From Desulfovibrionaceae bacterium (GTDB lineage Bacteria > Desulfobacterota > Desulfovibrionia > Desulfovibrionales > Desulfovibrionaceae): a stretch of DNA of 36,175 bases. This document shows, piece by piece, positions 1,167 to 17,211 of the stretch. The DNA lies in NCBI GenBank assembly GCA_015709205.1, contig JACCQO010000032.1, positions 1-36,175 of the forward strand. Direction: 5' to 3'. A program made the translations under genes and the position numbers. How positions within the stretch are numbered: the first letter of the stretch is position 1; every line of letters begins with the position of its first letter. The notes below the pieces were generated by a model. That model was not told where the DNA came from. It saw only the letters and a program-made list of their open reading frames with translations, and did no database searches.

Positions 1167-1180
1167 CGTGAAATGTCGCA
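1167..1180 (+). promoter_or_regulatory. Predicted activator binding site A
   Basis: The sequence CGTGAAATGTCGCA matches the motif YGYGAAATRYCRCA, which is shared with sites B, C and D in this window. It is the upstream member of an inverted pair with site B (centres 33 bp apart) and lies about 94 bp upstream of the -24 element of the flavoprotein operon. That position is typical for upstream activating sites of sigma54 activators. Assignment to the activator encoded at 5595-7106 is inference from location and from the matching pair at that gene's other flank. Confidence 0.62.
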
Positions 1181-1199
1181 ATGCTAACGGATCAGGAAT

Positions 1200-1213
1200 T
1201 GTGGCATTTCGCA
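1200..1213 (-). promoter_or_regulatory. Predicted activator binding site B
   Basis: Read on the minus strand this is TGCGAAATGCCACA, a full match to YGYGAAATRYCRCA and in opposite orientation to site A. Its centre is about 61 bp upstream of the -24 GG of the flavoprotein promoter. Confidence 0.62.
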
Positions 1214-1247
1214 GTGTCGACGCTTTGCACTCTTTATTATTATTTAA

Positions 1248-1260
1248 AATCAATGCGTTG
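1248..1260 (+). promoter_or_regulatory. Predicted IHF binding site
   Basis: AATCAATGCGTTG matches the IHF consensus WATCAANNNNTTR at every position and follows an A/T-rich tract. It lies between the activator sites and the -24 element, the usual place for IHF-assisted looping at sigma54 promoters. Confidence 0.6.
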
Positions 1261-1265
1261 AAAAT

Positions 1266-1281
1266 AGGAACAGGTCTTGCT
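1266..1281 (+). promoter_or_regulatory. Sigma54 (-24/-12) promoter of the flavoprotein-cytochrome operon
   Basis: AGGAACAGGTCTTGCT fits the sigma54 pattern: GG at 1267-1268, exactly ten bases, then GC at 1279-1280 within TTGCT. The first -24 base is A instead of T. The predicted transcript starts near 1292. The promoter on the other side of the activator gene (7324-7339) shares GGAAC-N5-TTGCTC with it. Confidence 0.72.
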
Positions 1282-1621
1282 CAATGGGCCGCATGTTGCC
1301 CTAGCGTTCGCCGAGGGCAAGGTCGTGGCACACCTCCCGCCGCGTGACGGAGAGGCCACCTGGCCGAAGATGAACGGCCACACGGCCGGCGTCGAGCGAA
1401 GCGGGATGCGGCGAACGGCCAATGACGAGCGATGCGGCACCGCCGGAAGCGGATGTCTTGAAGGTTAACGTCACGCAGTGCGCCCCGCCGGGGAGAAGAC
1501 GGCGTTCCGCACTCGTTTTTCCGTCCGGGAAAATGGAGAACTGGCGCTGGGCGCCGCCTCCCATCGCTCGCCTTTCGCAGACAATGGCGGAGTACCCTAC
1601 CTGCAAGGAGGAAAAGGAAAA

Positions 1622-3199
1622 ATGAAACGTGACCCTCGCCGGAAGGCGGCAAATACGCCGACGAAATCCCGGCGCGACGCATTGAAGAACATGATGGCGA
1701 TGGCCGGGGCGGCCGTTGTGGGCGTGGCGGCACCGGCCCGGGCCATGTCCCCGGGCGCGTCCGGCAGCGCGTCCGGCAGCGTGTCGTGGGACCGGGAATT
1801 CGACGTCGTGATCGTAGGCAGCGGTTTCGCGGGCAGCGCCGCGGCCATCGAGGCCCGGCGCGCCGGAGCCGACGTCATTGTCCTGGAAAAGATGCCCTAT
1901 TTCGGGGGCAACTCGGCAATCAACGGCGGCGCGTTCGCCGTGGCCAACAGCAGGCTGCAGGCAACACTCGGCATCAAGGACTCCGTGGACACCATGATCG
2001 CGGACATGCTCAAGGCCGGGCGCGGAACGAACCACGTCGATCTTCTGCGCGTCATCTGCGAAGGCACGGCCTCGGCGTATGAATTCACGCTCGAATACGG
2101 CGTCAAGTATCTGGACAAGGTCTTGCAGTTCGGCGGTCATTCCGTGCCCCGCACCATGCAGACCCGCAACTACAGCGGTGGAGACATCGTCGTTCCCCTG
2201 CGGCAGGGAGCCAAGAAGCTCGGGGCGTTTTTCAAGAACAAATGCAAGCTGGAGCGGATCGTTCTCAACGTCCAGGGGGATGTCGAAGGCGTGGCGGTCC
2301 GGGAAGGGTATGCCTTTCCCGACGAGAATTCCGGCGTCATCCGCCATTACAGGATCCGGCGGGGCCTGATCATGTGCTCCGGCGGCTTTTCCAGGGACCT
2401 GTTCTATCGCAAGTCCCAGATCCCGACGCTGGACGAAAGCGTGGACAGCACCAACCATCTCGGCGCGACCGCCGAAGGCTTCCACGCCATGCTGGCCGTC
2501 AACGCCATGCCCGTGAACTCGTCGTCGTTCCAGTTGGGACCGTGGGCCTCGCCCGACGAGGGCGGGTTCGGCTATGCCCCCCAATTCAACCAGCAGGGCA
2601 CCTTTCCCTACGGCATCATGGTCGATGCGCGCACGGGCAAGCGCTTCGTCAACGAAATGGCCGACCGCAAGACCCGCGCCGACGCGGAACTCAAGCTCCG
2701 GGATGCACAGGGCAAGCCCGTCTACCCGGTCACGATCTGCACCACGGCCGGCACCAAGGACATCCCCGACACGACGCTCAAGGCGGCCCTGCGCTTCGGC
2801 GTGGCCAGGAAATACGAGTCCATCGAAGCCTTGGCCGAGCACAACAACATTCCCCTGGAGCCGCTCAAGGAACAGATCGCCCGGTACAACAAGGCGGTGG
2901 AAAAGGGCGTGGACGAGGAATTCGGCAAGCCGATCCGGGCCAAGATCTTTTTGGACAAGCCGCCGTTCCTCTCCATGCGCTGCTGGCCGAAGGTGCATTT
3001 CGCCCAGGGCGGCGTGCGCATCAACACCCGGGCGGAGGTCCTGAACATGAGCACCGGAAAGCCCATCGCCGGATTGTTCGCCGCCGGGGAAGTGGTCGGC
3101 GGCCCCCACGGGGAAAGCCGGTTGGGCAGTTGCTCCATCGCCGACTGCCTGGTCATGGGCCGCATCGCCGGCAGGAACGCGGGCAGCCGCAGCGCCTAA
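1622..3199 (+). CDS. Tat-exported FAD-dependent reductase, flavocytochrome c / fumarate reductase family
   Basis: A 525-residue periplasmic flavoprotein. A twin-arginine signal is visible (S16-R-R-D-A-L-K, then a hydrophobic stretch to about residue 40). It is followed by the FAD dinucleotide motif VGSGFAGSAA (65-74), then LEK (88-90) and FGGNSAINGG. Compared from memory with Shewanella Fcc3, the proton-donor arginine (R349 in NEMADRKTRAD), a His before GGV (H459) and the late arginine (R500 in HGESRLG) are kept. The His and Thr-Glu that hold fumarate carboxylates in Fcc3 have no counterpart around residues 305-330, so the substrate is probably not fumarate. The start at 1622 has AAGGAGG upstream and gives the Tat signal; a longer in-frame extension does not look like protein. 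First gene of an operon with two cytochrome genes that can supply electrons. Confidence 0.85.
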   Translation: MKRDPRRKAANTPTKSRRDALKNMMAMAGAAVVGVAAPARAMSPGASGSASGSVSWDREFDVVIVGSGFAGSAAAIEARRAGADVIVLEKMPYFGGNSAINGGAFAVANSRLQATLGIKDSVDTMIADMLKAGRGTNHVDLLRVICEGTASAYEFTLEYGVKYLDKVLQFGGHSVPRTMQTRNYSGGDIVVPLRQGAKKLGAFFKNKCKLERIVLNVQGDVEGVAVREGYAFPDENSGVIRHYRIRRGLIMCSGGFSRDLFYRKSQIPTLDESVDSTNHLGATAEGFHAMLAVNAMPVNSSSFQLGPWASPDEGGFGYAPQFNQQGTFPYGIMVDARTGKRFVNEMADRKTRADAELKLRDAQGKPVYPVTICTTAGTKDIPDTTLKAALRFGVARKYESIEALAEHNNIPLEPLKEQIARYNKAVEKGVDEEFGKPIRAKIFLDKPPFLSMRCWPKVHFAQGGVRINTRAEVLNMSTGKPIAGLFAAGEVVGGPHGESRLGSCSIADCLVMGRIAGRNAGSRSA

Positions 3200-3226
3200 C
3201 TCTCTCATTTTCGATCCGGAGCCGAT

Positions 3227-3718
3227 ATGAAACGCATCATCAGATATCTCACGCCGCTGTTTTTCCTCGCCGCGCTGGTCACGACCGTGTCGGCCCTGGG
3301 CGTTTCCCCGAGCGCCCCATCGCAGGCCGCCGAGGAGTCCGCCCCCAAGGAGGAGCTGGCCTACCATCCCTCGGCCCAGGCCCGCTTGAACATGTGGATG
3401 CAACAGAAGCTCGGGGAACGCACCCTCAAGAAATACCACTACAAGGTCCACCAGAACGGGGTGTCCTGCGAACTGTGCCACAACGGGCAGAACCCGACCG
3501 CACCGGCCGATGACGCCAACTGCATCCGTTGCCACGGTTCGGCCAGCGACATGGCCAAGCTGACCGAGGAACGCGCCAAGGAAAACGACCTGCCGAATCC
3601 GCATCTGACGAAGCACTTCGGCGAGGACGTGCCCTGCACGACCTGTCACAAGGAACACAAGAAGTCGGAACTGCTGTGCGCCAACTGCCACAAGTACACC
3701 TACGAAAAATTCCAATAG
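3227..3718 (+). CDS. Periplasmic tetrahaem cytochrome c (cytochrome c3 / Fcc haem-domain type)
   Basis: A 163-residue secreted protein with an N-terminal Sec signal (MKRIIRYLTPLFFLAALV, small residues to about 35) and four haem-binding CXXCH motifs: CELCH, CIRCH, CTTCH and CANCH. Size and haem count resemble the tetrahaem domain fused to the flavin domain in Shewanella flavocytochrome c3. Here it is a separate subunit encoded 27 bases after the flavoprotein, as in split FccA/FccB-like systems. Its likely job is to pass electrons from the membrane cytochrome to the flavoprotein. Additional histidines (HKEHKK, HYKVH) could be second axial ligands. Confidence 0.88.
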   Translation: MKRIIRYLTPLFFLAALVTTVSALGVSPSAPSQAAEESAPKEELAYHPSAQARLNMWMQQKLGERTLKKYHYKVHQNGVSCELCHNGQNPTAPADDANCIRCHGSASDMAKLTEERAKENDLPNPHLTKHFGEDVPCTTCHKEHKKSELLCANCHKYTYEKFQ

Positions 3719-3758
3719 GGCAGCCGAGGCCACAAATGGCGTTGTTCTGGAGGACACG

Positions 3759-5468
3759 ATGCATTCGAAATATCTTCTCGTGATACTTACGCTTGTCCTG
3801 GGGCTGTGGGGCGGAAGGGCCGCCGCCGGGGAGCTCCCCACCGGCATCGTCCAGGGCGCGGCCGCCGCGAAGCATTCCGATGCGGTCCCCGGGCCCGTTC
3901 CCATCGACAGCACGACCTGCCTGAAATGCCACGGCAAGCCGGATATCCAGGGCGTCACGCCCCGGGGCATGACCCTGCGTCTGCATATCCCGGAACAGGA
4001 ATACGTCCGCAGCGCCCATGGAGGCTTCAGGTGCGTGGAATGCCATGTCGGCAGCCAGGGGGCCAAGAGTTTCGACGTGGTGCCCCACAAGCTGTCGGCG
4101 GAAGAGAGCCCCACCTGTCTGAACTGCCACCAAAAGGGGTTCGACCATGTCGTGGAAGACGTCCGCGCCAGCCAGCACTACAAGAAGGTCGGCGGCAAGG
4201 TCGGTTGCGCCGACTGCCATGAGGCGCACGCCCAACCCCGCAAGATGCCGGAAGATCGTTACGAGGACGCCGTTGAGGGGGACAACCGCCCCTGCGTCGC
4301 CTGCCATACCAACCTGACCCGGTTCAAGACCATTGCCGGACGGGCGGTCTTTACGCAGAACCTGTCCCACGAGTTCCTGCCCGAGAAGGAAAAGCACTTC
4401 CGGTCCGTGCGGTGCGTGGAGTGCCACACCCCCACCTCGGCCAAGGCGGTGCACCGCATCCTGCCCAAGGAGGAATCCCTCAAGGACTGCACGGCCTGTC
4501 ACACCGAAAGGGACTCCTTGTACGTCGCCGCGGTCCGCACCTATGCCGACGACGCGCCGGGCGCAGGCGGATTTCTGGGCAGGAACCTCTTCGACGAAGC
4601 CGATCTGGTCAAGCGCTTGGCCCAGGCCGGCGTGGTCCTGCAGCCGGACCGCCCGTTGCGGGCACGGGAAATACCCGAGGCGCAAGCGCTGGCGGCACTG
4701 GCCGACGCCTATGCGCCCGGCCTTGTGCGGCAGGCCGGCATGGACCGCAGGGGCGGCCTGGTCCTGGCGGCCGTGTTGGCGCTGTGCCTTTGCCACGGCG
4801 CTGCCCGCATGGCGGGCCGGAAGAAGGGCGGCGAGCTCCGGTCGGAATACGTCTACCCCCTGGGCGTCCGGCTTCTGCACTGGCTGAACGCGGTCCTGTT
4901 CCTCGTTCTCGTGGCCACGGGCCTGAGCATCCGTTTCCCCGAGGCCGCCTTGAGCCTGGGCATGGGCGGCAGCGTCCTCGTGCACGACGCCGCGGCCGTC
5001 CTGCTGGTCGCCAACTTCGCGGCCTTCCTGCTCCTGGAGCTCGCCACGGGCGATATCCGGCAGTACGCGCCGCGGTGCCGCGGCCTGTCCGAACGGTTGG
5101 CTCGCCAGCTCCGGTACTATCTCTGGGATATCTTCAGGGGCGGCCCCAAGCCGTATCCGATCACGCGCGAACAGCGCTTCAACCCCCTGCAGCAGCTCAC
5201 CTACGTCATCGTGTTCTGGATCGGCATCCCGGTGCTCGCGCTCACCGGCGCGCCCCTGCTCGTCTCCGGCCTGGCGCCGGAAACGAGCAGGGCTTGGTTG
5301 GCCGCGCTGCACTATGCGGCCGCCCTGTTCTACATGGCCTTCCTCATCCTGCACGTCTATCTGAGCACGACGGGCGACAAGCCGTCCTCGCTCCTGCGCG
5401 GGATGATCACCGGGCGCCACGAGCACGTCGAAGAGCGCCCGGCGGCACAAAACACGCTGGAATCCTGA
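3759..5468 (+). CDS. Heptahaem cytochrome c fused to a membrane cytochrome b domain
   Basis: A 569-residue protein with a signal peptide (first 23 residues) and seven CXXCH motifs in the first half: CLKCH, CVECH, CLNCH, CADCH, CVACH, CVECH and CTACH. A linker leads to a C-terminal membrane half (about residue 328 on) with roughly five hydrophobic helices. That half resembles di-haem cytochrome b of the b561 / hydrogenase-type group; candidate haem b ligands are His in LLHWLNA, VHDAAAV, LHYAAAL and LHVYLS. Predicted role: oxidise menaquinol in the membrane and deliver electrons through its own c haems to the tetrahaem cytochrome and flavoprotein. A ribosome binding site (GGAGGA) precedes the ATG. 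Last gene of the operon, followed by a strong terminator. Having quinol oxidation and a seven-haem wire in one polypeptide is uncommon. Confidence 0.85.
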   Translation: MHSKYLLVILTLVLGLWGGRAAAGELPTGIVQGAAAAKHSDAVPGPVPIDSTTCLKCHGKPDIQGVTPRGMTLRLHIPEQEYVRSAHGGFRCVECHVGSQGAKSFDVVPHKLSAEESPTCLNCHQKGFDHVVEDVRASQHYKKVGGKVGCADCHEAHAQPRKMPEDRYEDAVEGDNRPCVACHTNLTRFKTIAGRAVFTQNLSHEFLPEKEKHFRSVRCVECHTPTSAKAVHRILPKEESLKDCTACHTERDSLYVAAVRTYADDAPGAGGFLGRNLFDEADLVKRLAQAGVVLQPDRPLRAREIPEAQALAALADAYAPGLVRQAGMDRRGGLVLAAVLALCLCHGAARMAGRKKGGELRSEYVYPLGVRLLHWLNAVLFLVLVATGLSIRFPEAALSLGMGGSVLVHDAAAVLLVANFAAFLLLELATGDIRQYAPRCRGLSERLARQLRYYLWDIFRGGPKPYPITREQRFNPLQQLTYVIVFWIGIPVLALTGAPLLVSGLAPETSRAWLAALHYAAALFYMAFLILHVYLSTTGDKPSSLLRGMITGRHEHVEERPAAQNTLES

Positions 5469-5490
5469 TCACCGGCGAGGCAGCTCGCTC

Positions 5491-5527
5491 GGCCGCCCGG
5501 AACAACGGATTCCGGGCGGCCTTTTTT
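5491..5527 (+). terminator. Rho-independent terminator of the flavoprotein operon
   Basis: A 12-bp stem (GGCCGCCCGGAA at 5491-5502 with TTCCGGGCGGCC at 5510-5521), a 7-base loop and six T residues (5522-5527), starting 23 bases after the last cytochrome gene. It faces the converging activator gene. Confidence 0.93.
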
Positions 5528-5594
5528 GTTGGGGGGGCCGCCGGGGCGGCGAGCCGCGCTTCAGGCGCGGACGCCGCCCGGCGCCGCGCGGCGC

Positions 5595-7106
5595 TCAATA
5601 GACGGCCTTGCAGTGGCGGCCGAACGGGATGCTGAGCTTTTTCATCCTGCTCCGCAGGGTGCTGGGATTGACGTCGAGGAGATTCGCGGCGCCACCCGGC
5701 CCGTTGATGCGCCCCTTGGTTTCGCGCAGGGTGGCCAGGATCTGGTCCCGCATGCCATCGTTCAGGGATTTTCCGGAAGCGTTCTCCTGGGCCGCCACGA
5801 CATCGGGCTGCGGTTCGAAGAAGAGCCTGTCTCCGGATTGCATGATCAGGGCCCGCTCGATGACGGCGCGCATCTCCCGGACATTGCCGGGCCAGGCATA
5901 CCGACAGAGCATGGCCATGGCATTCGGGTCGATCCGGGGGTAGTCGTCGATGCCGAGCCGGGCCGCGACGGCATCGAGCAGGTACGAGGCCAGGACGGGG
6001 ATGTCCTCCTGGCGCTCCCGCAACGGAGGGATGGACATGACGAACCCCATCAAGCGGTAGAACAGGTCCCTGCGGAACGTCCCCTCGTGAACCATGCGTT
6101 CCAGATTCTGGTTCGTGGCGGCTATGAGGCGGAAATCCAGAGGAATGATCTCCTTGCCCCCGACCCGGCGCACGGCCCGGCTCTCCAGGACCTGTAGCAG
6201 GCGCGGTTGCATGTGCAAGGGGAATTCGCCGATCTCGTCCAGATAGATGGTGCCTTGATGCGCCTGTTCGAAAAGTCCCTTTCGGGCGGCTGTGGCGCCC
6301 GTGAAGGCGCCCCGTTCGTGGCCGAACAATTCGGAGTCCACGAGCGATTCCGTGAGCGCTCCGCAGTTGACGTGGATGAAGGGCTGCTTGCGCCGGGGGG
6401 ACAGGTCGTGGATTATGCGGGCGACCATGTTCTTGCCCGTGCCCGTTTCGCCCAGCAGCAGGACGTTGCTCGGCAGACCGGCGATGCGCCGCACCTGGCC
6501 CAGCAGGTTCTTCATGGTTTCGGAAGCCCAGACGAGCCCGTCGGCTCCGCCCCATCCCGCATCGTCGAGGACCGACCCTTGAGCGCCGGGCGTCCCGTTT
6601 GCGGACGGATGCAGCAGCCCGCGGGTCAGAAGCTGGTTGGCCACGCAAAGCGAAATCGGCTCCCGGATGTCCATCAACGGCCCGCGCAGCTTTTCGACAT
6701 CGCTTTTGTTTTTCGCGTAGGCGCCGAGAATGGCCATGTGCTCGCCGTCCATGCGCAAGCGCATCTCCAGGACGGGGTTGCGGTCGGGAACGATGGCGCC
6801 CATGACCGATTTCATGCCCGGGAACTCGTCCACCGTGCCCCAGATACGGCTTTCCGGCCGCGATGGGGACATGAGGTAGTCGTGGTACGCGCCCAGCACC
6901 GGCCGCTCGTCGTCCAGCAGCCGCTCGGTGCTGCTGTTCACGTCGGCCAGGTGCACGACGCGGTGCTTGTCGTGCAGGTATTTCCCGATGAAAAGGCCTT
7001 CTATCGGCGCGATCGAGTTGAGCATGGACCGACAGTGCCCCAACACCTTCACGATGTTCAACGTCGAGCAGATGCTTTTGGTGACGGACTCATAGAATCT
7101 GTTCAT
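5595..7106 (-). CDS. Sigma54-dependent transcriptional activator (AAA+ with Fis-type HTH)
   Basis: A 503-residue bacterial enhancer-binding protein. An N-terminal sensory region of about 160 residues of no clear family (GAF-like in size) precedes the AAA+ domain. That domain shows Walker A GETGTGKN, the sigma54-contacting GAFTGA loop, Walker B YLDEIGEF and the arginine-rich FRRDLFYRL. A Fis-type helix-turn-helix (GGAANLLDVNPSTLRSRMKK) ends the protein. It lies between two operons whose sigma54 promoters carry the same paired binding motif, so it is the obvious common regulator. The signal is unknown; no receiver domain is present, so direct ligand sensing is more likely than phosphorylation. 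The ribosome binding site before 7106 is weak. Confidence 0.9.
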   Translation of the reverse strand: MNRFYESVTKSICSTLNIVKVLGHCRSMLNSIAPIEGLFIGKYLHDKHRVVHLADVNSSTERLLDDERPVLGAYHDYLMSPSRPESRIWGTVDEFPGMKSVMGAIVPDRNPVLEMRLRMDGEHMAILGAYAKNKSDVEKLRGPLMDIREPISLCVANQLLTRGLLHPSANGTPGAQGSVLDDAGWGGADGLVWASETMKNLLGQVRRIAGLPSNVLLLGETGTGKNMVARIIHDLSPRRKQPFIHVNCGALTESLVDSELFGHERGAFTGATAARKGLFEQAHQGTIYLDEIGEFPLHMQPRLLQVLESRAVRRVGGKEIIPLDFRLIAATNQNLERMVHEGTFRRDLFYRLMGFVMSIPPLRERQEDIPVLASYLLDAVAARLGIDDYPRIDPNAMAMLCRYAWPGNVREMRAVIERALIMQSGDRLFFEPQPDVVAAQENASGKSLNDGMRDQILATLRETKGRINGPGGAANLLDVNPSTLRSRMKKLSIPFGRHCKAVY

Positions 7107-7128
7107 GCCGTTTCTCTAGCTCCATTAA

Positions 7129-7156
7129 TTCATACATATTTTCACGCAGTTCGCAA
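7129..7156 (-). promoter_or_regulatory. Possible sigma70-type promoter of the activator gene
   Basis: On the minus strand TTGCGA (7156-7151) and TATGAA (7134-7129) are separated by 16 bases, just upstream of the activator start at 7106. Only a moderate match to -35/-10 consensus. Confidence 0.35.
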
Positions 7157-7226
7157 CTCGGCGGGGTTTCGCGCGCCTGCTCGGCGTTCCATGTCCGCGT
7201 GGCGTCCCGCCACGCCTTCTTGGGAG

Positions 7227-7240
7227 TGTGAAATACCACA
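7227..7240 (+). promoter_or_regulatory. Predicted activator binding site C
   Basis: TGTGAAATACCACA fully matches YGYGAAATRYCRCA and is itself partly symmetrical (TGTG-N6-CACA). Its centre is about 92 bp upstream of the -24 element of the aconitase X promoter, almost the same distance as site A to its own promoter (94 bp). Confidence 0.62.
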
Positions 7241-7260
7241 TATCGGGACGGTTGCCAAAA

Positions 7261-7274
7261 TGCGGGATTTCGAA
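7261..7274 (-). promoter_or_regulatory. Predicted activator binding site D, within a longer palindrome
   Basis: On the minus strand TTCGAAATCCCGCA matches 12 of 14 positions of YGYGAAATRYCRCA and is inverted relative to site C (centres 34 bp apart). It is embedded in a larger imperfect palindrome (7260-7286) with core ATTTCGAAAT flanked by GGG/CCC and ATGC/GCAT. Its centre is about 58 bp upstream of the -24 GG. Confidence 0.58.
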
Positions 7275-7323
7275 ATTCCCAGGCATGGCCAAAAATAATC
7301 TATTTATATAAATATGTTGTGTA

Positions 7324-7339
7324 TGGAACGATTGTTGCT
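7324..7339 (+). promoter_or_regulatory. Sigma54 (-24/-12) promoter of the aconitase X operon
   Basis: TGGAACGATTGTTGCT fits the sigma54 consensus closely: GG at 7325-7326, ten bases, GC at 7337-7338 within TTGCT. The transcript should start near 7350, leaving a leader of about 110 nt before the ATG at 7462. Confidence 0.78.
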
Positions 7340-7461
7340 CCATCCGTCCGGTTGGCGGCGGTCGGCCCAAAACGCCCAGCGCCGCACGGAATGCCCGGTT
7401 GAATGATGTTTCGTATGCTTTTGCACAGGCAGAGAGCAGAACAGCCCAAAGGAGGGGCATT

Positions 7462-8718
7462 ATGCAACTGACGGAACATGAACGTGGAATGTTGTCCGGA
7501 AAGTACGGACAAGGCGTAAAACAGGCGATGGAGATACTGACGGCATACGGTGATTGCAACAATGCCGGAAGGATGATCCCTATCACGAGCGTCCATATCG
7601 CAGGGAATTATCCCGTCCTCCTGGATGAAGGCATTGAATGGCTTGAAAACATAGCCGCTGGTGGCACGAAGGTCAAGGTGCTCACCACGGTGAACCCAGA
7701 GATGTACGACTTCGAGCAGGCCGATGCGCTCGACGTTCCGACCTTCTACAGGGAACGGCAAAAGAAGATCGACGACGCCTTCAAGTCCATGGGGATAACC
7801 CTCAACTACACGTGCCATCACTATCTGGTGGGGAACGTCCCGCGCTTTGGAGACCATATTGCCTGGGCTTCGTCCGGCAGCCAGGTCTTCGCGAACTCCA
7901 TCATCGGTGCGCGGTCCAACCGCGACGGGGATCATGTCGCCATCGCGGCCGCCATCACGGGCGTCATTCCGGAATGGGGGCTGCACATCACCGAGAACAG
8001 GAGGGGAGACGTTCTCGTCGATCTCGGCAAGCTCGACCTCAAGAAGTACGGGAACACGGAGTACAAGACACTGGGGTGGCTGTTCGGCCGGTTGCTGGGG
8101 GCAAAGAACCCGGTCGTGGCGAATCTCCCGCCGGACATCGACATGGAGAACGTCAAAGGCATCATGTACACGATGACGGTGACCGGCGGGGCCGGGCTGG
8201 TGCACTTCGTGGGCATAACCCCGGAAGCGCCCACCGTCGAAGCCGCCTTCCACGGCAAAAGCCCCCGGCATCCCGACATCGTGATCACCCAGAAGGAGGT
8301 GGACAAGGCCTTCAAGGAGATCTCGAGCGCCAAGCACGACAAGCTCGACCTCGTGATCTTCGGCTGCCCGCACTGCACGATCCGCGACGTGCAGCATATC
8401 GTGGACCTGCTCGACGGGCGCAAGGTGCACAAGGACACCCGGTTCTGGATTTGCACGTCCAGGTGGGTCAAGACCCTCAGCGAGCGGATGGGCCTGTTGG
8501 AGAAGCTGCAGGCCTCCGGCGGGCATATGGTCTGCGACACCGCCCCCTGTGCCGGGCCGTATTGGTACCTGAAAAAGCAGGGGGTCCAGGTGATGGCCAT
8601 CAACTCCGCCAAGGCGAACTATTACGCCCACGGCCTGTGCGGCATGGAGACGTGGTTCGGCTCCACGGAGGCATGCGTGGAGTCGGCGATCTCGGGCAAG
8701 TGGGAAGGTCCCAGATAG
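7462..8718 (+). CDS. Aconitase X large (catalytic) subunit
   Basis: A 418-residue protein of the aconitase X catalytic family (formerly DUF521). These are Fe-S hydro-lyases that dehydrate small hydroxy acids; characterised members include cis-3-hydroxy-L-proline dehydratase and phosphomevalonate dehydratase. Family landmarks: HIAGNYPVLLDEG, YTCHHYLVGN (C118), IIGARSNRDGD, AAITGVIPEWGLHI, FGCPHCT (C302, C305), MVCDTAPC (C358, C363) and YAHGLCGM (C393). The likely cluster ligands are among C118, C302 and C358. There is no signal peptide. The start at 7462 has AAAGGAGG just upstream; an earlier in-frame ATG at 7399 lacks one. Small and large subunits are separate genes, as in the two-subunit members. 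The substrate cannot be read from sequence. Confidence 0.88.
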   Translation: MQLTEHERGMLSGKYGQGVKQAMEILTAYGDCNNAGRMIPITSVHIAGNYPVLLDEGIEWLENIAAGGTKVKVLTTVNPEMYDFEQADALDVPTFYRERQKKIDDAFKSMGITLNYTCHHYLVGNVPRFGDHIAWASSGSQVFANSIIGARSNRDGDHVAIAAAITGVIPEWGLHITENRRGDVLVDLGKLDLKKYGNTEYKTLGWLFGRLLGAKNPVVANLPPDIDMENVKGIMYTMTVTGGAGLVHFVGITPEAPTVEAAFHGKSPRHPDIVITQKEVDKAFKEISSAKHDKLDLVIFGCPHCTIRDVQHIVDLLDGRKVHKDTRFWICTSRWVKTLSERMGLLEKLQASGGHMVCDTAPCAGPYWYLKKQGVQVMAINSAKANYYAHGLCGMETWFGSTEACVESAISGKWEGPR

Positions 8719-8787
8719 CCATGTCGCCGCGGGGCGAGGGCGGGAAGGCGCATCGTCCCGGCAGGCCCTACCGCAAGGAGAACGGGT

Positions 8788-9312
8788 ATGAAGTCTGAAA
8801 TGGACAGAAGGGAATTCATCAAGGCATCCGTTATGGCCGGCGCCGTCGCGGCCTTTGGATTGTTTTCTCCGGCAGCTGGTTTCGGCAAGGGAGGTAAGGA
8901 GATGATGACGATCAAGGCAAAACCGGTGACCTCCGGAGTGGCGGAAGGCGAGGCTCTTGTTTCGCGGATGCCGATATCCTTCACCGGTGGAATGGACCCG
9001 TCGACAGGGGTCATCAGGGAACCGGGCCATGACCTGGAAGGCCAGAGCGTGGCCGGGAAGATCCTCGTCTTCCCGAACGGCAAGGGATCGACGACCGGTT
9101 GCTGGCAGTATTACGCCGCCTACAAGAGAGGCGTCGCGCCCGTCGGCATCATCAACGTCATGGCCGAAGGGGTCGTCGTGGTCGGCGCGATCATCGCGCA
9201 CACGCCGATGGTCCAACAAATGGAACGCAACCCCCTCGAATGCATCAAGACCGGCGACCACGTCAAAATAGACGCCGACAAGGGGCTCGTGTTCGTCACC
9301 CCGGCGAGCTGA
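8788..9312 (+). CDS. Aconitase X small (swivel) subunit with an N-terminal Tat signal
   Basis: A 174-residue protein. From about residue 41 it is a normal aconitase X swivel domain (formerly DUF126), with SRMPISFTGGMDPSTG, FPNGKGSTTG (the serine is the usual catalytic candidate) and AYKRGVAPVGI. Ahead of it is a textbook twin-arginine leader: D6-R-R-E-F-I-K, then a hydrophobic run to about residue 27 and a small-residue region near PAAG. Such a leader is unexpected because this enzyme family is known from the cytoplasm. Both the first ATG (AAGGAG, 7-base spacing) and an internal in-frame ATG at 8902 (AGGGAGG, 7-base spacing) have good ribosome binding sites. A short unexported form starting at M39 or M40 is therefore possible. 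Encoded 69 bases after the large subunit. Confidence 0.85.
   Translation: MKSEMDRREFIKASVMAGAVAAFGLFSPAAGFGKGGKEMMTIKAKPVTSGVAEGEALVSRMPISFTGGMDPSTGVIREPGHDLEGQSVAGKILVFPNGKGSTTGCWQYYAAYKRGVAPVGIINVMAEGVVVVGAIIAHTPMVQQMERNPLECIKTGDHVKIDADKGLVFVTPAS
8888..8904 (+). promoter_or_regulatory. Internal ribosome binding site and second start in the aconitase X small subunit
   Basis: AGGGAGG (8888-8894) lies 7 bases before an in-frame ATG at 8902, itself followed directly by another ATG. Initiation here would give exactly the family-typical small subunit without the Tat leader. Confidence 0.5.
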
Positions 9313-9599: not shown

Positions 9600-9923
9600 C
9601 TAGAAAGCCGCCTTGAGTGTGCCGGTGATGGCGATGGTCAGTTCGGGCTGGTCTTCCATGGCGCCGGTGGCGTGCAGGGTCGTGCCCTGGATGGCGCCTT
9701 CGAGCAGCAGGTGGAAGTTCTGCAGGGGTTTGAAGACCGAGTCCACGTCGGGGTTGTGGTTCTGCACGAAGACGCGGCTGGCGAACCGGTCGCCGGTGCG
9801 GGCCAAGGGGCCGGAGTAGATGAACCCCGAGTCGCCGCCGCCGAGCCTGTCGTTCCGCACGACGATCACGCCGCTGCCGCGGCGGTCGCCGAAGGTGAAT
9901 TCCACCGCCCATATTCCGTTCAT
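9600..9923 (-). CDS. GrlR-like small regulatory protein
   Basis: A 107-residue protein. Its pattern of an early GIW...F, G-SGVIVVRN, GGDSGFIYSGPL, VQNHNPDVDSVF, a central hydrophobic LLLEG and a late PELTIAITG resembles the GrlR family (small calycin-like beta-barrel proteins). The founding member represses the type III secretion activator in attaching-and-effacing E. coli. Similar small proteins occur without type III secretion, and no secretion gene is present here. GGAGGAAA precedes the ATG. It lies 159 bases downstream of a sigma54 activator gene on the same strand and may be co-transcribed or modulate it. The family call rests on remembered pattern only. Confidence 0.6.
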   Translation of the reverse strand: MNGIWAVEFTFGDRRGSGVIVVRNDRLGGGDSGFIYSGPLARTGDRFASRVFVQNHNPDVDSVFKPLQNFHLLLEGAIQGTTLHATGAMEDQPELTIAITGTLKAAF

Positions 9924-10082: not shown

Positions 10083-11624
10083 CTAGCCCGTCGTTGTCGT
10101 CCGCGCCTTGCGGCCGAAGGGCACGTCGAGCCTGCGCATCTTGTTGCGCAGGGTCGAGGGATGCAGGCCGAGCAGTTGCGCTGCGCCGCCCGGGCCCTCC
10201 ACGCGGCCGGAGGCGATCTCCAGGGCCTCGGCGATGTGCTGCGCCGTGGCCTCGGCCAGGTCGGGGAAGGCGGCCTCGGGTCGGGCAAAGGGGGCGGCGG
10301 GCCTGGGCCGGGGCGCGCCCAGGTTGTGGAAGGTCAACGGGCGGCCATCGCAGAGCAGCACGGCGCGCTCGATGACGTTCTGCAACTCGCGCACGTTGCC
10401 GGGCCAGGCGTACGCCTGGAGCCGGGCGATGCCCTCGGGCGTGGCGCGCACCGGGCCCAGGCCCATCTTTCGCGCGGTCTTTTCGATGAAGTATTCGGCC
10501 AGCGGGGGGATGTCCTGCACGCGGTTGCGCAGGGGCGGCACGGAGATGGGCATGACCCCGAGGCGGAAGTAGAGGTCCTCGCGGAAATCGCCCCGGCGCA
10601 GCATTTCCTCCAGGTCGCGGTGCGTGGCCGCGATGATGCGGATGTCCACCGCCACGGCCTGGGTGCCGCCCACGCGTTCGATGCAGTGTTCCTGGAGCAC
10701 GCGCAAGAGGCGCACCTGGGCCTCCAGGGGCAGTTCGCCCACCTCGTCCAGGAACAGGGTGCCGCCGTGGGCGCGTTCGAAGCGGCCCTTGTGCTGGGCC
10801 ACGGCCCCGGTGAAGGCCCCGCGCTCGTGGCCGAAGAGTTCGGCGTCCACCAGGTCGGGCGGGATGGCCCCGCAGTTGACCGGGACGAACGGGCCGTTGC
10901 GCCGGGGCGAGAGCGCGTGCGTGGCGCGGGCGAAGAGCTCCTTGCCCACGCCCGTTTCGCCGAGCAGGAGCACGGGCGTGTCCTGCGCGGCCACGCGCCG
11001 GATGTGGCGCATGGTGGCGCTCAGTCCGCCGTCCTCGCCGATGATCCGGTCGCTGGAGACGCGGTCCAGTTCCTTGCGCAGGAAACGGTTGTCCTCGGCC
11101 AGCCGGGTGCGGATCCGCGTGAGTTCATCGAAGCGCAGGGCGTTGCTCAGGGCCATGCCCACGGGCTCGTTGAGCTGGGCGAGCAGTTCGACGATCTCCG
11201 GCGTGAAGACGTTTTCCCGCTCGCTTTGATAGGAGATGCCTCCCACGGTGGTGCCGCCCACGGAGAGGATGACCGCCAGGGTCGAGGTAGGCCGGGGGCT
11301 GTAGCGCGCCTTGAGCTGGTCGGAGACCACGTCGTCATGCTCTTCGCCGTGAAAGAGGCGTGGTTCGCGGCTGGCGAGCACGGACTCGATGAGCGCCGCG
11401 CTCTCGTCGGAAATCTCGTATTCCTCGCGGCGGAAGAGCACGCCGCGCTCGATGCGGGCCATGCAGATCATGGTCTGGCGCTCGGGGTTGTAGACCTCCA
11501 CGGTGACGCGCAGCAGCGGCACCACGGCGGAGACGAATTCATACAGCCGCAACAGGGCGTTGCCGATGTCCAGATCCCCGCAGATGCGCAGGGTCGCCTC
11601 CTTGAAGAAGCTCATGGTCTCCAT
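10083..11624 (-). CDS. Sigma54-dependent activator with N-terminal GAF-like domain
   Basis: A 513-residue enhancer-binding protein. Residues about 10-165 look like a GAF ligand-binding domain. They are followed by an AAA+ domain with Walker A GETGVGKE, the GAFTGA loop, Walker B FLDEVGEL and FREDLYFRL, and a C-terminal Fis-type HTH (GGAAQLLGLHPSTLRNKMRR). The start at 11624 is chosen because GGAGGAAA lies directly upstream; a longer frame to 11666 lacks one. The domain order is that of NorR- or FhlA-like regulators that sense a small molecule directly, but no specific ligand can be named. Divergent to it is a sigma54 promoter (11767-11782) preceded by repeated sequences, the natural candidate target. 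Confidence 0.88.
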   Translation of the reverse strand: METMSFFKEATLRICGDLDIGNALLRLYEFVSAVVPLLRVTVEVYNPERQTMICMARIERGVLFRREEYEISDESAALIESVLASREPRLFHGEEHDDVVSDQLKARYSPRPTSTLAVILSVGGTTVGGISYQSERENVFTPEIVELLAQLNEPVGMALSNALRFDELTRIRTRLAEDNRFLRKELDRVSSDRIIGEDGGLSATMRHIRRVAAQDTPVLLLGETGVGKELFARATHALSPRRNGPFVPVNCGAIPPDLVDAELFGHERGAFTGAVAQHKGRFERAHGGTLFLDEVGELPLEAQVRLLRVLQEHCIERVGGTQAVAVDIRIIAATHRDLEEMLRRGDFREDLYFRLGVMPISVPPLRNRVQDIPPLAEYFIEKTARKMGLGPVRATPEGIARLQAYAWPGNVRELQNVIERAVLLCDGRPLTFHNLGAPRPRPAAPFARPEAAFPDLAEATAQHIAEALEIASGRVEGPGGAAQLLGLHPSTLRNKMRRLDVPFGRKARTTTTG

Positions 11625-11633
11625 GTTTCCTCC

Positions 11634-11696
11634 AAATACGGCAGTTGTTCGGCGAAACTGTCGCATGCGGCGGCGATACTGTCAAATACGGCTGTT
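11634..11696. repeat. Nested direct repeats upstream of the GAF-type activator
   Basis: AAATACGGCWGTT occurs at 11634-11646 and 11684-11696 (50 bp apart). Between them GGCGAWACTGTC occurs at 11651-11662 and 11672-11683 (21 bp apart, two helical turns). They lie 72-134 bp upstream of the -24 element of the plus-strand sigma54 promoter and immediately before the activator ribosome binding site. Likely operator sites for target activation and autoregulation. Confidence 0.55.
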
Positions 11697-12850: not shown

Positions 12851-13025
12851 GGCGGCAGTCTACGTCGTCAGGGCGTCCGGGGCAACACCGGCAGGCGTGG
12901 CCGACAAAGGGGCAGGCGGCCGCACGCCGTGCGGACGGGACCCGGACGGGGCATTGCCCGATGAGCCGGTCCTGCAGTATGTGGATCGCAGAGCGTTTTC
13001 TGCCTCATATCGAACGGATACCGCC

Positions 13026-13062
13026 GTCCCCTGTCGCCCGGTCCCGGGCGGGGCAGGGGGGC
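13026..13062 (+). promoter_or_regulatory. Structured leader before aspartase
   Basis: CCCCTG pairs with CAGGGG and, nested inside, CGCCCGG pairs with CCGGGCG over a 2-base centre, about 25 bases before the aspA start. It may influence translation or mRNA stability. No known riboswitch class is recognised. Confidence 0.35.
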
Positions 13063-13086
13063 GACGATTTCGCAACAGGAGCCATC

Positions 13087-14502
13087 ATGCCCATTCGCAA
13101 GGAACACGATTTTCTCGGCGAGCTGGAAATCCCCAACACCGTGTACTGGGGCGTGCAGACCGCGCGCGCCCTGGAGAACTTCCGCATCAGCAATTCGACC
13201 CTGACCGACAGCCACGGGCTGATTCGCGCCTTCGGCTACGTGAAGAAGGCCGCCGCACTGGCCAACATGGACCTGGGCGTGCTCGACGCGGGCATCGGCC
13301 GGGCCATCTGCGCGGCCTGCGACGAACTCATCGCGGGCAAGCTGCACGACCAGTTTCCCATCGACCCCATCCAGGGCGGCGCGGGCACCTCCACGAACAT
13401 GAACGCCAACGAGGTCATCGCCAACCGCGCCCTGGAGCTGCTGGGCCGGGCCAAGGGCGACTACGACTTCTGCCACCCCAACAATCACGTGAACTGCTCC
13501 CAGTCCACCAACGACGCCTATCCCACGGCCTTCCGCATCGCCCTGCACCTGGAGCTCAAGGCGCTCATGGAGCGCATGGTCCATCTGCACGAGGGCTTTT
13601 CGCGCAAGGGTGCCGAGTTCGCGGACGTGATCAAGATGGGCCGAACGCAACTGCAGGACGCCGTGCCCATGACCCTGGGCCAGGAGTTCGGGGCCTACGC
13701 CACGACCATCGCCGAGGACGTGGCCCGCGTGGGCGAGGCGCTGGAGCTGCTCCTGGAGATCAACATGGGGGCCACGGCCATCGGCACGGGCATCAACGCG
13801 CCGGCCGGGTATTCCGCCGTGGTCTGCAGGCACCTGCGCGCGCTCACCGGGCTGGACCTGCGCCTGTCCGTGAACCTGGTGGAGGCCACTTGGGACAACG
13901 GGGCCTACGTGCAGATATCCGGGGTGCTCAAGCGCTTCGCCGTGAAGCTCTCCAAGATCTGCAACGACCTGCGGCTGCTCTCCTCGGGCCCGCGCACCGG
14001 GATCAACGAGATCAACCTGCCCAGGCTGCAGCCCGGGTCCTCGATCATGCCCGGCAAGGTCAACCCGGTCATTCCCGAGGTGGTCAACCAGGTCTGCTTC
14101 GACGTGATCGGCAAGGACGTGACCGTGACCATGGCCGCCGAGGCCGGGCAGCTGGAGCTGAACGTGATGGAGCCGATCATCGCCTTGACGCTGTTCACGG
14201 CGGTGTGGCGGCTGGCCAACGCCTGCACGGCGCTGCGCGACAAGTGCGTGGACGGCATCACGGCCAACCGCGAGCGCTGCTACGACCTGGTCAAGCAGTC
14301 CGTGGGCATCGTGACCAACCTGGTGCCGGTGATCGGCTATGAAAAGGCCGCGGCCGCGGCCAGGGAGGCGCTGCAGACCGGCCGTTCCCTGGCGGACGTG
14401 GTCCTGGAGCAGGGCATGCTCACCCACGAGGAGCTCGACGACCTCCTGGCCCCGGAAAACATGCTCCAGCCCGCCCGCGCGACCCTGAAAAAAGCTAGGT
14501 AG
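13087..14502 (+). CDS. aspA: Aspartate ammonia-lyase (aspartase)
   Basis: A 471-residue cytoplasmic enzyme of the aspartase/fumarase superfamily that interconverts L-aspartate with fumarate and ammonia. The superfamily signature is GSSIMPGKVNPVIPEVVNQV; the following TVTMAAEAGQLELNVMEP and the N-terminal EHDFLGELEIP favour aspartase over fumarase C. Other conserved blocks are GGAGTSTNMNANEV and HPNNHVNCSQSTND. GGAG precedes the ATG at 13087. It appears to be a single-gene unit, divergent from the SIMPL gene. In an anaerobe it can feed fumarate to respiration, though no classical fumarate reductase is visible here. Confidence 0.93.
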   Translation: MPIRKEHDFLGELEIPNTVYWGVQTARALENFRISNSTLTDSHGLIRAFGYVKKAAALANMDLGVLDAGIGRAICAACDELIAGKLHDQFPIDPIQGGAGTSTNMNANEVIANRALELLGRAKGDYDFCHPNNHVNCSQSTNDAYPTAFRIALHLELKALMERMVHLHEGFSRKGAEFADVIKMGRTQLQDAVPMTLGQEFGAYATTIAEDVARVGEALELLLEINMGATAIGTGINAPAGYSAVVCRHLRALTGLDLRLSVNLVEATWDNGAYVQISGVLKRFAVKLSKICNDLRLLSSGPRTGINEINLPRLQPGSSIMPGKVNPVIPEVVNQVCFDVIGKDVTVTMAAEAGQLELNVMEPIIALTLFTAVWRLANACTALRDKCVDGITANRERCYDLVKQSVGIVTNLVPVIGYEKAAAAAREALQTGRSLADVVLEQGMLTHEELDDLLAPENMLQPARATLKKAR

Positions 14503-14560
14503 GATTCGGGCCGCCGGATCCGCCCGGGCGGCACGAAGCGCCGGAGTGCGGCGACGCAGG

Positions 14561-14597
14561 CGGCGGGCCCGGAAGCGCCATGCTTCCGGGCCCGCCG
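14561..14597. terminator. Bidirectional hairpin between aspA and the UxaA operon
   Basis: A perfect 16-bp inverted repeat (14561-14576 and 14582-14597, core GGGCCCGGAAGC) with a 5-base loop lies between the converging aspA and UxaA-type genes. There is no T tract, but its position and stability fit a shared terminator or mRNA 3' stabiliser. Confidence 0.65.
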
Positions 14598-14614
14598 TGC
14601 GCGGAGGGGGGAGG

Positions 14615-15778
14615 TCAGAACGTTCCGGTGAGCTTGTAGATGCCGAACTCGTGGTGGCCGAGGCTCTCGGCCTTGGTCTGCCTGCCGTTGCACACGTCGA
14701 CCATGAGGCCGAAGACCTCTTCGCCGATTTCCTCCAGCCTGGCGCCGTCGGAGATGATCCGGCCCGCGTTCACGTCCAGGTTGTCGGGCATCTTGGCGTA
14801 GGTGTCGGGGTTGCCGGTGATCTTGATGACCGGGGTGATGGGGCTGCCCGTGGGCGTGCCGCGGCCCGTGGAGAAGATGACGAGCTGCGCGCCGCCCGCC
14901 ACCATGCCGGTGATGGAGTCGATGTCCTGGCCGGGCGTGTCCATGAAGTACATGCCCCGCTTCTCCGGCGGCACGATCTCGGCATAGTCCAGGGCGCCCT
15001 TGAAGGGCGCGGTGCCCGCCTTGTACATGCAGCCCAGGGACTTCTCCTCGATGGTGGACAGGCCGCCCTCCTTGTTGCCGGGCGTGGGTTGGCCGCTCCT
15101 GAGATCCTCGCCCATCGCGATGGCGCGGTCCTCCACGCTCTTGACCTGGGCCAGGAACTTGTCGCGCTGGGCCGGGTCCTCGAAGCGCGCCGCGATGAGG
15201 TGCTCGGCGCCGATGACCTCGGTGGTTTCGCTCAGGATGCTGCTGCCGCCCTCGGCGATGAGCTTGTTGGAGGCGTAGCCGATGGTCGGGTTGGAGGCGA
15301 TGCCGCTGGTGGGGTCGGAGCCGCCGCATTCCAGGCCCATGACGATCTCGCCCATGTCGCACTCCACGCGCTCCTGCGTGGACAGGTCGCGCGCCATGGG
15401 GGCCATCAGTTCAGCGCCCCTGGCGATGGTCTTGAGGGTGCCGCCGCATTCCTGGATGACCACGAACTCCACGGGCTTGCCCGTCTCGCGGAGCTCGGCC
15501 GCCACGTTGCGGGCCTGGATGCCGTCGCAGCCCAGGCCGACCACGAGCACCGCGCCCACGTTGGGGTTCTTGCCGAAGCCCACGATGGTCTTCTGGGTCA
15601 GGGCCAGGTCCGACCCGATCTGGCAGCAGCCGTGCTGGTTGGGGATGGACACCGCGCCGGGCACCAGGGCCGCGATCTTGGCGGCCGTGTCCGCCGCGCA
15701 CACGGAGGTGGGGATGACCAGCAGGTGATTGCGGATGCCGTAGAGGCCGTCGGGCCTGCGATATGCCTTGATCTTCAT
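14615..15778 (-). CDS. UxaA-family dehydratase/lyase, large subunit
   Basis: A 387-residue protein matching the C-terminal catalytic part of altronate/galactarate dehydratases (UxaA/GarD family). Landmarks: GYRRPDGLYGIRNHLLVIP, NQHGCCQIG, GLGCDG, QECGGT, GLECGGSDPTSGIASNPTIG and STGRGTPTGSPITPVIKITGN. The conserved cysteines and histidine fit a metal-dependent hydro-lyase. The N-terminal SAF domain is encoded separately just upstream. The same two-gene split is found in sulfolactate sulfo-lyase (SuyAB), so that activity is an alternative. The linked KdgT-type permease favours a sugar acid. AAGGAGAAA precedes the start. Confidence 0.78.
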   Translation of the reverse strand: MKIKAYRRPDGLYGIRNHLLVIPTSVCAADTAAKIAALVPGAVSIPNQHGCCQIGSDLALTQKTIVGFGKNPNVGAVLVVGLGCDGIQARNVAAELRETGKPVEFVVIQECGGTLKTIARGAELMAPMARDLSTQERVECDMGEIVMGLECGGSDPTSGIASNPTIGYASNKLIAEGGSSILSETTEVIGAEHLIAARFEDPAQRDKFLAQVKSVEDRAIAMGEDLRSGQPTPGNKEGGLSTIEEKSLGCMYKAGTAPFKGALDYAEIVPPEKRGMYFMDTPGQDIDSITGMVAGGAQLVIFSTGRGTPTGSPITPVIKITGNPDTYAKMPDNLDVNAGRIISDGARLEEIGEEVFGLMVDVCNGRQTKAESLGHHEFGIYKLTGTF

Positions 15779-15793
15779 GTCGTTTCTCCTTGG

Positions 15794-16072
15794 CTAGCGC
15801 CGCTTGTCGCCGCGGCCGCGGGTGCTTTCGATGTTGTGCACATGGACGTGGTCTCCGGGGGCGATGTCCTGCGTGGCATCGCCGATGACTTCACCGTACT
15901 TGTAGCACATTCCTCCCTTTGCAATGGCCGCCGTGGCCACCTTGTGGAAACGGGGAATGTCCATGTTCACGGTGTAGCTCCTTCCGTCCACTTCGATGAC
16001 CTCGCCCTTCTTCAGGGCGCGCAGACAGGTCACGACGTTGTCCTTCTCGTTGATGTGCAGAGCCGCATTCAT
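15794..16072 (-). CDS. UxaA-family dehydratase/lyase, small SAF-domain subunit
   Basis: A 92-residue protein equivalent to the N-terminal SAF domain of UxaA (HINEKDNVVTCLRALKKGE, and GDHVHVHN near the end). It is expected to form a two-subunit enzyme with the large subunit encoded 15 bases downstream. GGAGG precedes the ATG. Confidence 0.8.
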   Translation of the reverse strand: MNAALHINEKDNVVTCLRALKKGEVIEVDGRSYTVNMDIPRFHKVATAAIAKGGMCYKYGEVIGDATQDIAPGDHVHVHNIESTRGRGDKRR

Positions 16073-16133
16073 CGCTTGAGCCTCCTTCGTCGTTGCATGG
16101 TTTACGTGGTGACGGGCCCGGCCGGCGCCCGAA

Positions 16134-17099: not shown

Positions 17100-17131
17100 C
17101 GTGGTTCCTCCTCATTGGGGTTGAAACGTGC

Positions 17132-17160: not shown

Positions 17161-17211
17161 CAAGAGAAGACGATGAATATCAACGTATTATATAGAAAGC
17201 CTCCCGGGATG

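Follow-up and report, generated by a model that had tools for sequence, protein, structure and literature searches.

An aconitase X operon with a predicted export signal appears to share a sigma54 regulon with a periplasmic flavocytochrome operon in a Desulfovibrionaceae bacterium

Introduction

Fumarate, urocanate, methacrylate, and acrylate are known acceptors in the periplasmic respiration of enoates (PMC4427408). The closest described system to the one considered here is Mrd/Mcc of Geobacter sulfurreducens AM-1, whose two components carry different signal peptide types; the same paper discusses the dimethylsulfoniopropionate lyase DddY, together with a reductase that evolved to convert the acrylate that lyases form (PMC4427408). 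Here, we analyze a stretch of 36,175 nucleotides (hereafter, the window) from a Desulfovibrionaceae bacterium (assembly GCA_015709205.1, contig JACCQO010000032.1), in which a flavocytochrome operon and an aconitase X operon are preceded by the same kind of sigma54 promoter.

Two further bodies of work bear on this locus. Aconitase X enzymes have been sorted into types I and II, of which subclasses IIc-IIf carry neither landmark residue set and await characterization (PMC8184944). In Desulfovibrio vulgaris Hildenborough, the activators of sigma54 regulons often adjoin their targets, most regulons span one to four operons, and one of them controls the electron-transfer complex Ohc (PMC4641369). 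A preliminary description of the window had proposed that one sigma54 regulon joins both operons. Co-regulation is well supported by a site matrix taken from other genomes and by shuffled sequences, while the conservation of the sites proved to be one-sided. The odds seem to us to lean modestly toward a single activator driving both operons, with an aconitase X exported by the twin-arginine translocation (Tat) pathway making an enoate that the flavoprotein chain reduces.

Results

Two operons share a promoter plan

Each of the two operons (Table 1) begins with a -24/-12 element that matches GGAACN5TTGCTC exactly, at 1267-1282 and 7325-7340. The preliminary description had recognized this shared element, with numbers one base off. 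When up to one mismatch is allowed, the window holds three matches against 0.68 expected, a count reached by 2 of 100 shuffles. Upstream of each element lies a pair of putative activator sites: YGYGAAATRYCRCA is found exactly at 1167 (+), 1200 (-), and 7227 (+) and with two mismatches at 7261 (-). The pairs had been described as inverted copies, with starts 33 and 34 bp apart and with the downstream copy 61 and 58 bp from the -24 GG. The spacings of 33 bp (flavocytochrome promoter) and 34 bp (aconitase X promoter) were recovered, as were the distances (60.5 and 57.5 bp from site centre to GG), and the pairs are present, three of the four copies being exact. All four sites, including the divergent fourth, are near-palindromes, for which "two dyads about three helical turns apart" is a better description than "inverted sites".

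In the whole genome (4,246,612 bases), YGYGAAATRYCRCA has three exact matches, all in the window, and 15 more with one mismatch, against 13 for the reversed control. The loose pair pattern GAAATNNCNCA-N15-25-TGNGNNATTTC has no occurrence in the genome apart from the two promoters, and its reversed control has none. Both patterns were fitted to the window and are thus not independent evidence. The generic consensus TGGCACGNNNNTTGCW, searched with three mismatches, was uninformative in the window (48 found, 62 expected).

Evidence from outside the genome comes from the flavocytochrome protein, which was sought in 289 genomes of the family. Matches at E-values up to 1e-80 were obtained in 17 of them, the window's own included; in most genomes the five best candidates were scored, and weaker flavoprotein copies may be missed. 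At the five nearest orthologues (L049-L053, 56-63% identical to the window's protein), an activator gene adjoins the flavoprotein gene in divergent orientation, and a -24/-12-like element with palindromic sites of the form TGCGANATNTCGCA lies upstream. A site matrix was built from 11 sites of these five promoters and none from the window, and it ranks the window's four sites 1, 2, 3, and 8 among 36,162 positions. The relatives' sites were sought with the window motif in mind, so this test lies outside the window's genome but is not blind. The weaker of the two window pairs scores 20.9, a value equalled anywhere in 6 of 400 dinucleotide shuffles. A pair scoring at least 20.9 and properly placed upstream of a sigma54 core was seen in 0 of 400 dinucleotide shuffles and twice in the real window. 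From the centre of the downstream site to the -24 GG, the five relatives measure 61.5, 60.5, 80.5, 59.5, and 58.5 bp, compared with 60.5 and 57.5 bp in the window; these distances were taken from the promoter, the start used for the L050 flavoprotein being upstream of its own promoter and probably wrong. With a matrix that leaves out its own genome, each of the five relatives still has its top match at its own site.

Two such similar promoters could also stem from a recent duplication of DNA that was neutral in effect, and the two 180-bp promoter regions do align at 2.0, against a mean of -31.7 and a best of -15.5 in mononucleotide shuffles (n = 200). By eye, however, much of the similarity lies within the sites and the -24/-12 element, and the geometry agrees with that of five other genomes; even if the DNA had been duplicated, the positions that matter were kept. 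We give this explanation very little weight.

Site conservation is confined to one side. Strong sites are present at 5 of the 16 other flavocytochrome orthologues, namely the five nearest, with weaker ones perhaps at two more, and the best single-site score among the remaining 11 is 12.7 (L055, L057, L058). In L057 and L058, which belong to one genus, a weaker related pair precedes a TGGCAC-type promoter, farther from the -24-like element and some 570 bp upstream of the flavoprotein; it is perhaps a diverged form of the same control. No sites were found in the 14 upstream regions of other aconitase X genes (11 of the window's clade and 3 of same-genome paralogues; five of these upstream regions span about 260 bp). 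The motif pair that the preliminary description had proposed to look for in related genomes is thus recovered at the flavocytochrome operons of the five nearest relatives and missing at the aconitase X genes scanned. This asymmetry suggests an old regulon core at the flavocytochrome operon, to which the aconitase X operon seems to have been added in the lineage of the window. The relatives' consensus TGCGANATNTCGCA, with at most one mismatch, has no match in the window's genome, which indicates that the window's sites have drifted from it. The same one-mismatch scan in 13 genomes gave mostly noise among the matches listed, several genomes being at or below the reversed control.

The likely regulator

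The activator gene that had been reported between the two operons is indeed there, on the minus strand (5595-7106), and its product has a Sigma54_activat AAA+ domain with the GAFTGA motif and a DNA-binding end. It is not, as had been stated, the only one nearby: a second activator is encoded at 10083-11666, and a third, with PrpR_N and PAS domains, at 17242-19479. The DNA-binding end of the activator scores 20.4 bits with Pfam HTH_8, below the 22-bit cutoff. Both the activator between the operons and the second activator form one clade with those of L049-L053 (support 0.984). Within this clade, the former groups with the activators of L049-L051 (0.997). The DNA-binding ends differ (18-24% identity) in the activators examined beside L054, L055, L056, L060, and L064.

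The second activator, alone or together with the first, might instead drive the promoters: it groups with the activators beside the same-site operons of L052 and L053 (0.851) and has a related DNA-binding end. That end is nevertheless 38-48% identical to the L049-L053 proteins, compared with 53-57% for the activator between the operons, which moreover adjoins one of the two promoters and is divergent from it. We therefore regard a role for the second activator as improbable, and the activator between the operons is by inference the likelier regulator of both promoters. Its orientation differs from that in the relatives: their activator genes diverge from the flavoprotein operon, whereas the window's diverges from the aconitase X operon. 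Beside the second activator gene, a small protein encoded at 9600-9923 (-) is weakly GrlR-like (23.1 bits, below the Pfam cutoff of 26.8).

The flavocytochrome operon

The flavoprotein of the window has no CXXCH motif and, by inspection, a twin-arginine N-terminus, for which Pfam TAT_signal was not reported. A heme-free flavoprotein and a separate tetraheme cytochrome encoded in one operon make this a methacrylate-type two-component arrangement, with export judged by inspection of the N-termini. Together with the heptaheme/cytochrome b fusion, the operon possibly encodes an electron path from quinol through the fusion and the tetraheme cytochrome to the flavoprotein. Among the other 16 orthologues, 12 keep the three genes together (L049-L058, L060, L061); L059 is cut by a contig end, L063 and L064 have only a short cytochrome beside the flavoprotein, and L062 has neither cytochrome.

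The closest solved relative of the flavoprotein is urocanate reductase. At the position of Tyr373 in UrdA, which is His in fumarate reductase, the window's protein and its near clade have glycine, and the position of UrdA Asp388 also aligns with glycine, in a gapped and less certain stretch; the arginines at the R411 and R560 positions are kept (positions as given in PMC7921117). The glycine in place of the fumarate reductase His argues against fumarate as the acceptor, and the glycines at Tyr373 and, in the gapped stretch, at Asp388 argue against urocanate. With these positions changed and the two arginines kept, the protein is probably an enoate reductase for another acid.

Aconitase X and its Tat-type signal

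Both aconitase X domains (PF04412 and PF01989) score above the Pfam cutoffs. The cysteines equivalent to C110 and C283 of TkAcnX are kept, the equivalent of C342 is Ala, and a further CPxC motif is present. The hydroxyproline-binding Asp203 is not kept, and the mevalonate-phosphate loop (G48-V49-S50/N53) is changed, with a gap and the loss of Ser50 and Asn53; Glu129 is Ser (roles as given in PMC8184944). Hydroxyproline was rejected as a substrate, since its binding residues are not kept, and so was phosphomevalonate, on account of the changed phosphate loop and the Glu129 replacement.

The small subunit begins MKSEMDRREFIKASVMAGAVAAFGLF and passes Pfam TAT_signal (PF10518). In nine of nine distinct loci of relatives without such a signal (hereafter, non-Tat relatives), the stop codon of the large subunit overlaps the start of the small one. 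In the window, the large subunit is separated from the relatives' start position by a 69-bp gap followed by 114 nt that encode the Tat signal, and the relatives' ribosome-binding site survives in frame at 8889-8894, just ahead of an internal ATG at 8902. Within the extended gene, 8889-8907 thus holds a ribosome-binding site and two ATG codons, from which a second, cytoplasmic product is possible. In the frames viewed, no such signal was seen in the small subunits of the other three aconitase X pairs of the window's genome. A second Tat-type small subunit was seen in a distant genome (G600), with TRREFLK and an A-x-A motif by inspection. Two of the clade's 13 members, which include one near-identical pair, thus have the signal, and the starred branches of the tree force two changes.

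Translation from the internal start at 8902 might accordingly give the window an aconitase X that works in the cytoplasm, with the Tat stretch vestigial or serving a minor exported pool. This would suit a ribosome-binding site and ATG retained at the relatives' start position and a large subunit that has no signal. Set against it are the intact Tat frame, which has a twin-arginine motif and both a start and a ribosome-binding site of its own, and the separate case in G600 with its A-x-A motif, and we think a cytoplasmic enzyme improbable. Export, as we favor it, would also be consistent with the genes around the pair. In three non-Tat relatives scanned by Pfam (L025, L028, L095), a binding protein (DctP) of a tripartite ATP-independent periplasmic (TRAP) transporter is encoded directly downstream of the aconitase X pair, which fits import and cytoplasmic use. 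In the Pfam scan, no transporter was found in either window operon, the sugar-acid permease KdgT lying further off at 16134-17099.

The locus of the Tat-type pair in G600 (L098) is near urocanase, DUF362, and molybdopterin-enzyme genes, with a small Cache-domain protein encoded downstream; the DUF362 and molybdopterin-enzyme products have Tat-like N-termini that fall below the Pfam cutoff.

Probably exported partner enzymes in orthologous operons

Other flavocytochrome operons with the same control sites also carry probably exported enzymes. In L052 (7069-8781) and L053 (7590-9278), a protein of the Lyase_aromatic family, whose N-terminus looks signal-like by inspection, is encoded between the flavoprotein and the tetraheme cytochrome; both score well below the curated cutoffs for histidine ammonia-lyase. 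The product of ergothionase is thiourocanate, an enoate. That enzyme is the best solved relative of the L052 lyase, the copy searched (PDB 6s7j, E-value 2e-95), followed at 9e-47 by a probable histidine ammonia-lyase. This suggests a respiration of thiourocanate that would be made in the periplasm. In L049 (5449-6519) and L050 (5202-6236), a BD-FAE-type esterase with a signal-like N-terminus is encoded downstream of the cytochrome b gene, and its substrate is perhaps an ester of an enoic acid. Four of the five same-site operons thus have another probably exported enzyme within or next to them, and in two of these it belongs to an enoate-forming family.

The shared promoter plan had itself been offered as strong evidence that the products of the two operons work together, but a common promoter by itself does not imply this. 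More persuasive are the export signal of aconitase X and the presence, in or beside four of the five nearest orthologous flavocytochrome operons, of another enzyme with a signal-like N-terminus; apart from the promoter, the latter gives the strongest reason to think that the products of the window would act in sequence. Alternatively, the operons could be co-regulated without being sequential, if the activator senses a general condition (e.g., acceptor or redox state) and aconitase X serves a separate carbon metabolism. Five genomes keep the flavoprotein regulon without aconitase X, so the flavoprotein works there without it, and the cytoplasmic aconitase X relatives adjoin TRAP genes, L028 being also near a B12-mutase gene. 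Against this, the regulon is narrow, with the site pair at just two promoters genome-wide, and the export signal, missing in most relatives, would place both products in one compartment. On balance, we consider separate metabolism unlikely, though the weightiest of the alternatives, and favor products that act in sequence.

Other aconitase X genes and neighboring loci

The window's genome encodes three further aconitase X pairs, on contigs C35 and C52 (L065-L067). The C35 pair is adjoined by an activator gene, and both it and one C52 pair are near a galactarate/altronate dehydratase-like gene. In the window itself, 12961-19479 holds a fumarase/lyase-family gene, a galactarate/altronate dehydratase C-terminal gene, the KdgT permease, and the third sigma54 activator, and is probably a separate sugar-acid locus.

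Table 1 Features of the two operons and their regulators in the window
Feature	Position	Strand	Evidence
Putative activator site (palindromic), flavocytochrome promoter, upstream copy	1167..1180	.	Matrix rank 1 of 36,162
Putative activator site (palindromic), flavocytochrome promoter, downstream copy	1200..1213	.	Matrix rank 2 of 36,162; centre 60.5 bp from GG
-24/-12 sigma54 element, flavocytochrome operon	1267..1282	+	Exact GGAACN5TTGCTC
Flavocytochrome c family flavoprotein, probable periplasmic enoate reductase	1622..3199	+	TIGR01813, 450 bits (cutoff 285)
Tetraheme cytochrome c, probable electron donor of the flavoprotein	3227..3718	+	Cytochrom_c3_2; 4 CXXCH; signal-like N-terminus by inspection
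Heptaheme cytochrome c fused to a cytochrome b561-type membrane domain, probable quinol-oxidizing subunit	3759..5468	+	Ni_hydr_CYTB, Cytochrome_C7; 7 CXXCH
Sigma54 enhancer-binding activator, divergent from the aconitase X operon	5595..7106	-	Sigma54_activat; GAFTGA seen
Putative activator site (palindromic), aconitase X promoter, upstream copy	7227..7240	.	Matrix rank 3 of 36,162
Putative activator site (palindromic), aconitase X promoter, weaker downstream copy	7261..7274	.	Matrix rank 8 of 36,162; centre 57.5 bp from GG
-24/-12 sigma54 element, aconitase X operon	7325..7340	+	Exact GGAACN5TTGCTC
Aconitase X large subunit	7462..8718	+	AcnX PF04412, 418 bits; no signal peptide seen
Aconitase X small (swivel) subunit with Tat signal	8788..9312	+	AcnX_swivel_put (PF01989), 102 bits
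Tat signal coding stretch (DRREFIK and hydrophobic stretch), missing in non-Tat relatives	8788..8901	+	Junction comparison
Second sigma54 activator of the same wider clade, alternative regulator	10083..11666	-	Sigma54_activat

Discussion

Read together, the sites, promoters, gene families, heme counts, Tat-type signals, and flavocytochrome-side conservation suggest the following pathway. One sigma54 activator, most likely that encoded between the operons, would bind the palindrome pairs centred about 58-61 and 92-94 bp upstream of both -24/-12 promoters and turn on a pathway that operates outside the cytoplasm. The aconitase X pair would fold in the cytoplasm with a presumed iron-sulfur centre and then leave it through Tat; the small subunit bears the signal, and the large one would presumably be carried along. 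In the periplasm, provided that the reaction runs in this direction, aconitase X would produce an alpha,beta-unsaturated acid by elimination, the leaving group ordinarily being water and the substrate a beta-hydroxy acid. If the two enzymes are coupled, the flavoprotein would reduce the double bond of this product with quinol electrons that reach it through the heptaheme/cytochrome b fusion and then the tetraheme cytochrome. An electron acceptor would in this way be produced on the spot from a substrate that cannot serve as one, and an importer would be unnecessary.

Several observations weigh against this pathway. At the promoters, the second site of the aconitase X operon is weak (matrix rank 8), and the pair in L057 and L058, in a different setting, scores 21.8 and thus higher than the weaker window pair (20.9). 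The TAT_signal pass of the small subunit is marginal (22.8 bits, cutoff 22.7), the large subunit has no signal, and the old ribosome-binding site with ATG 8902 would also permit a cytoplasmic small subunit. The G600 small subunit gave no Pfam TAT_signal match, so that case rests on inspection, and the open reading frame (ORF) list of one non-Tat relative (G571, L096) has no TRAP-like gene beside the pair. The hydroxyl-binding Glu of characterized aconitase X (PMC8184944) is Ser in the window, so the chemistry may differ from dehydration. L051 has the same control sites and no partner enzyme in its ORF list.

Nor do the two proteins track each other clearly across genomes. No other stretch examined has an aconitase X beside the flavoprotein, and none of the 16 other flavoprotein-bearing genomes of the family has an aconitase X match at E-values up to 1e-20. 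In the opposite direction, relatives of the flavoprotein were sought with cutoffs of 1e-30 and 1e-60, the 11 clade genomes checked comprising 2 Tat and 9 non-Tat. They were found in both Tat genomes, but also in two of the nine non-Tat ones (G681, G688) and, at E-values up to 1e-60, in 18 of 46 genomes of the class to which G600 belongs; 0 of 6 wider relatives had one. These numbers are small and the background is high, so that the co-occurrence of flavoprotein and Tat signal does not lend support. In G600, the flavoprotein relatives (L118, L119) are on other contigs than aconitase X, and no match to the site pattern was found within their 19 kb.

More broadly, it is about an even bet that an aconitase-superfamily enzyme became periplasmic when a Tat signal was inserted between its subunit genes, in two or more events or in one followed by repeated loss, and that in the window it was wired into a reductase regulon to give a two-step respiration whose acceptor is generated by elimination outside the cytoplasm. 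The reductase clade would then be a base module that works with varied exported enzymes: an ergothionase-like lyase, perhaps an esterase, and aconitase X. If true, this would suggest a function for an uncharacterized kind of aconitase X and provide a relative of aconitase that is exported by Tat. It would also give a rule for finding acceptors, which is to look for exported lyases or hydrolases beside this reductase clade. Among the papers listed by searches of the open-licence literature on ergothionase/thiourocanate, on aconitase and Tat, on DUF521 (8 of 5,466 listed), and on periplasmic lyases with reductases, no description of such a system was found, and, by titles and the beginnings of abstracts, none of a Tat-exported aconitase; both are weak evidence of absence.

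The known systems resemble different parts of the locus. Like the window, Mrd/Mcc of G. sulfurreducens AM-1, which reduces an enoate in the periplasm, has a flavoprotein and a separate tetraheme cytochrome encoded together (PMC4427408). The carrier that brings electrons from menaquinone to Mrd/Mcc is stated there to be unknown; the window operon adds the heptaheme/cytochrome b fusion, a sigma54 promoter, and a co-regulated aconitase X. UrdA and the Shewanella periplasmic fumarate reductase belong to the same flavoprotein family (PMC7921117), with which the window's protein shares the R411/R560 arginines, whereas it has Gly at Tyr373/His and, less certainly, at D388 and lacks a heme motif. With the aconitase X types I and II described in PMC8184944, the window's enzyme shares the two-subunit type II arrangement, PF04412 and PF01989, and the C110/C283 equivalents. 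It differs from the characterized enzymes in the absence of the hydroxyproline and phosphomevalonate residues, in E129 to Ser and C342 to Ala, and in the added Tat signal. Ergothionase (PDB 6s7j), the nearest solved relative of the lyase in the L052 operon by sequence match, lies outside the window, where aconitase X would take its place. Table 1 of the D. vulgaris sigma54 study, which gives locus numbers rather than products, names no window-like regulon by function (PMC4641369). As far as the available text of these sources goes, the Mrd/Mcc-like reductase half and ordinary sigma54 control are known, and what is new is an exported aconitase X within such a regulon.

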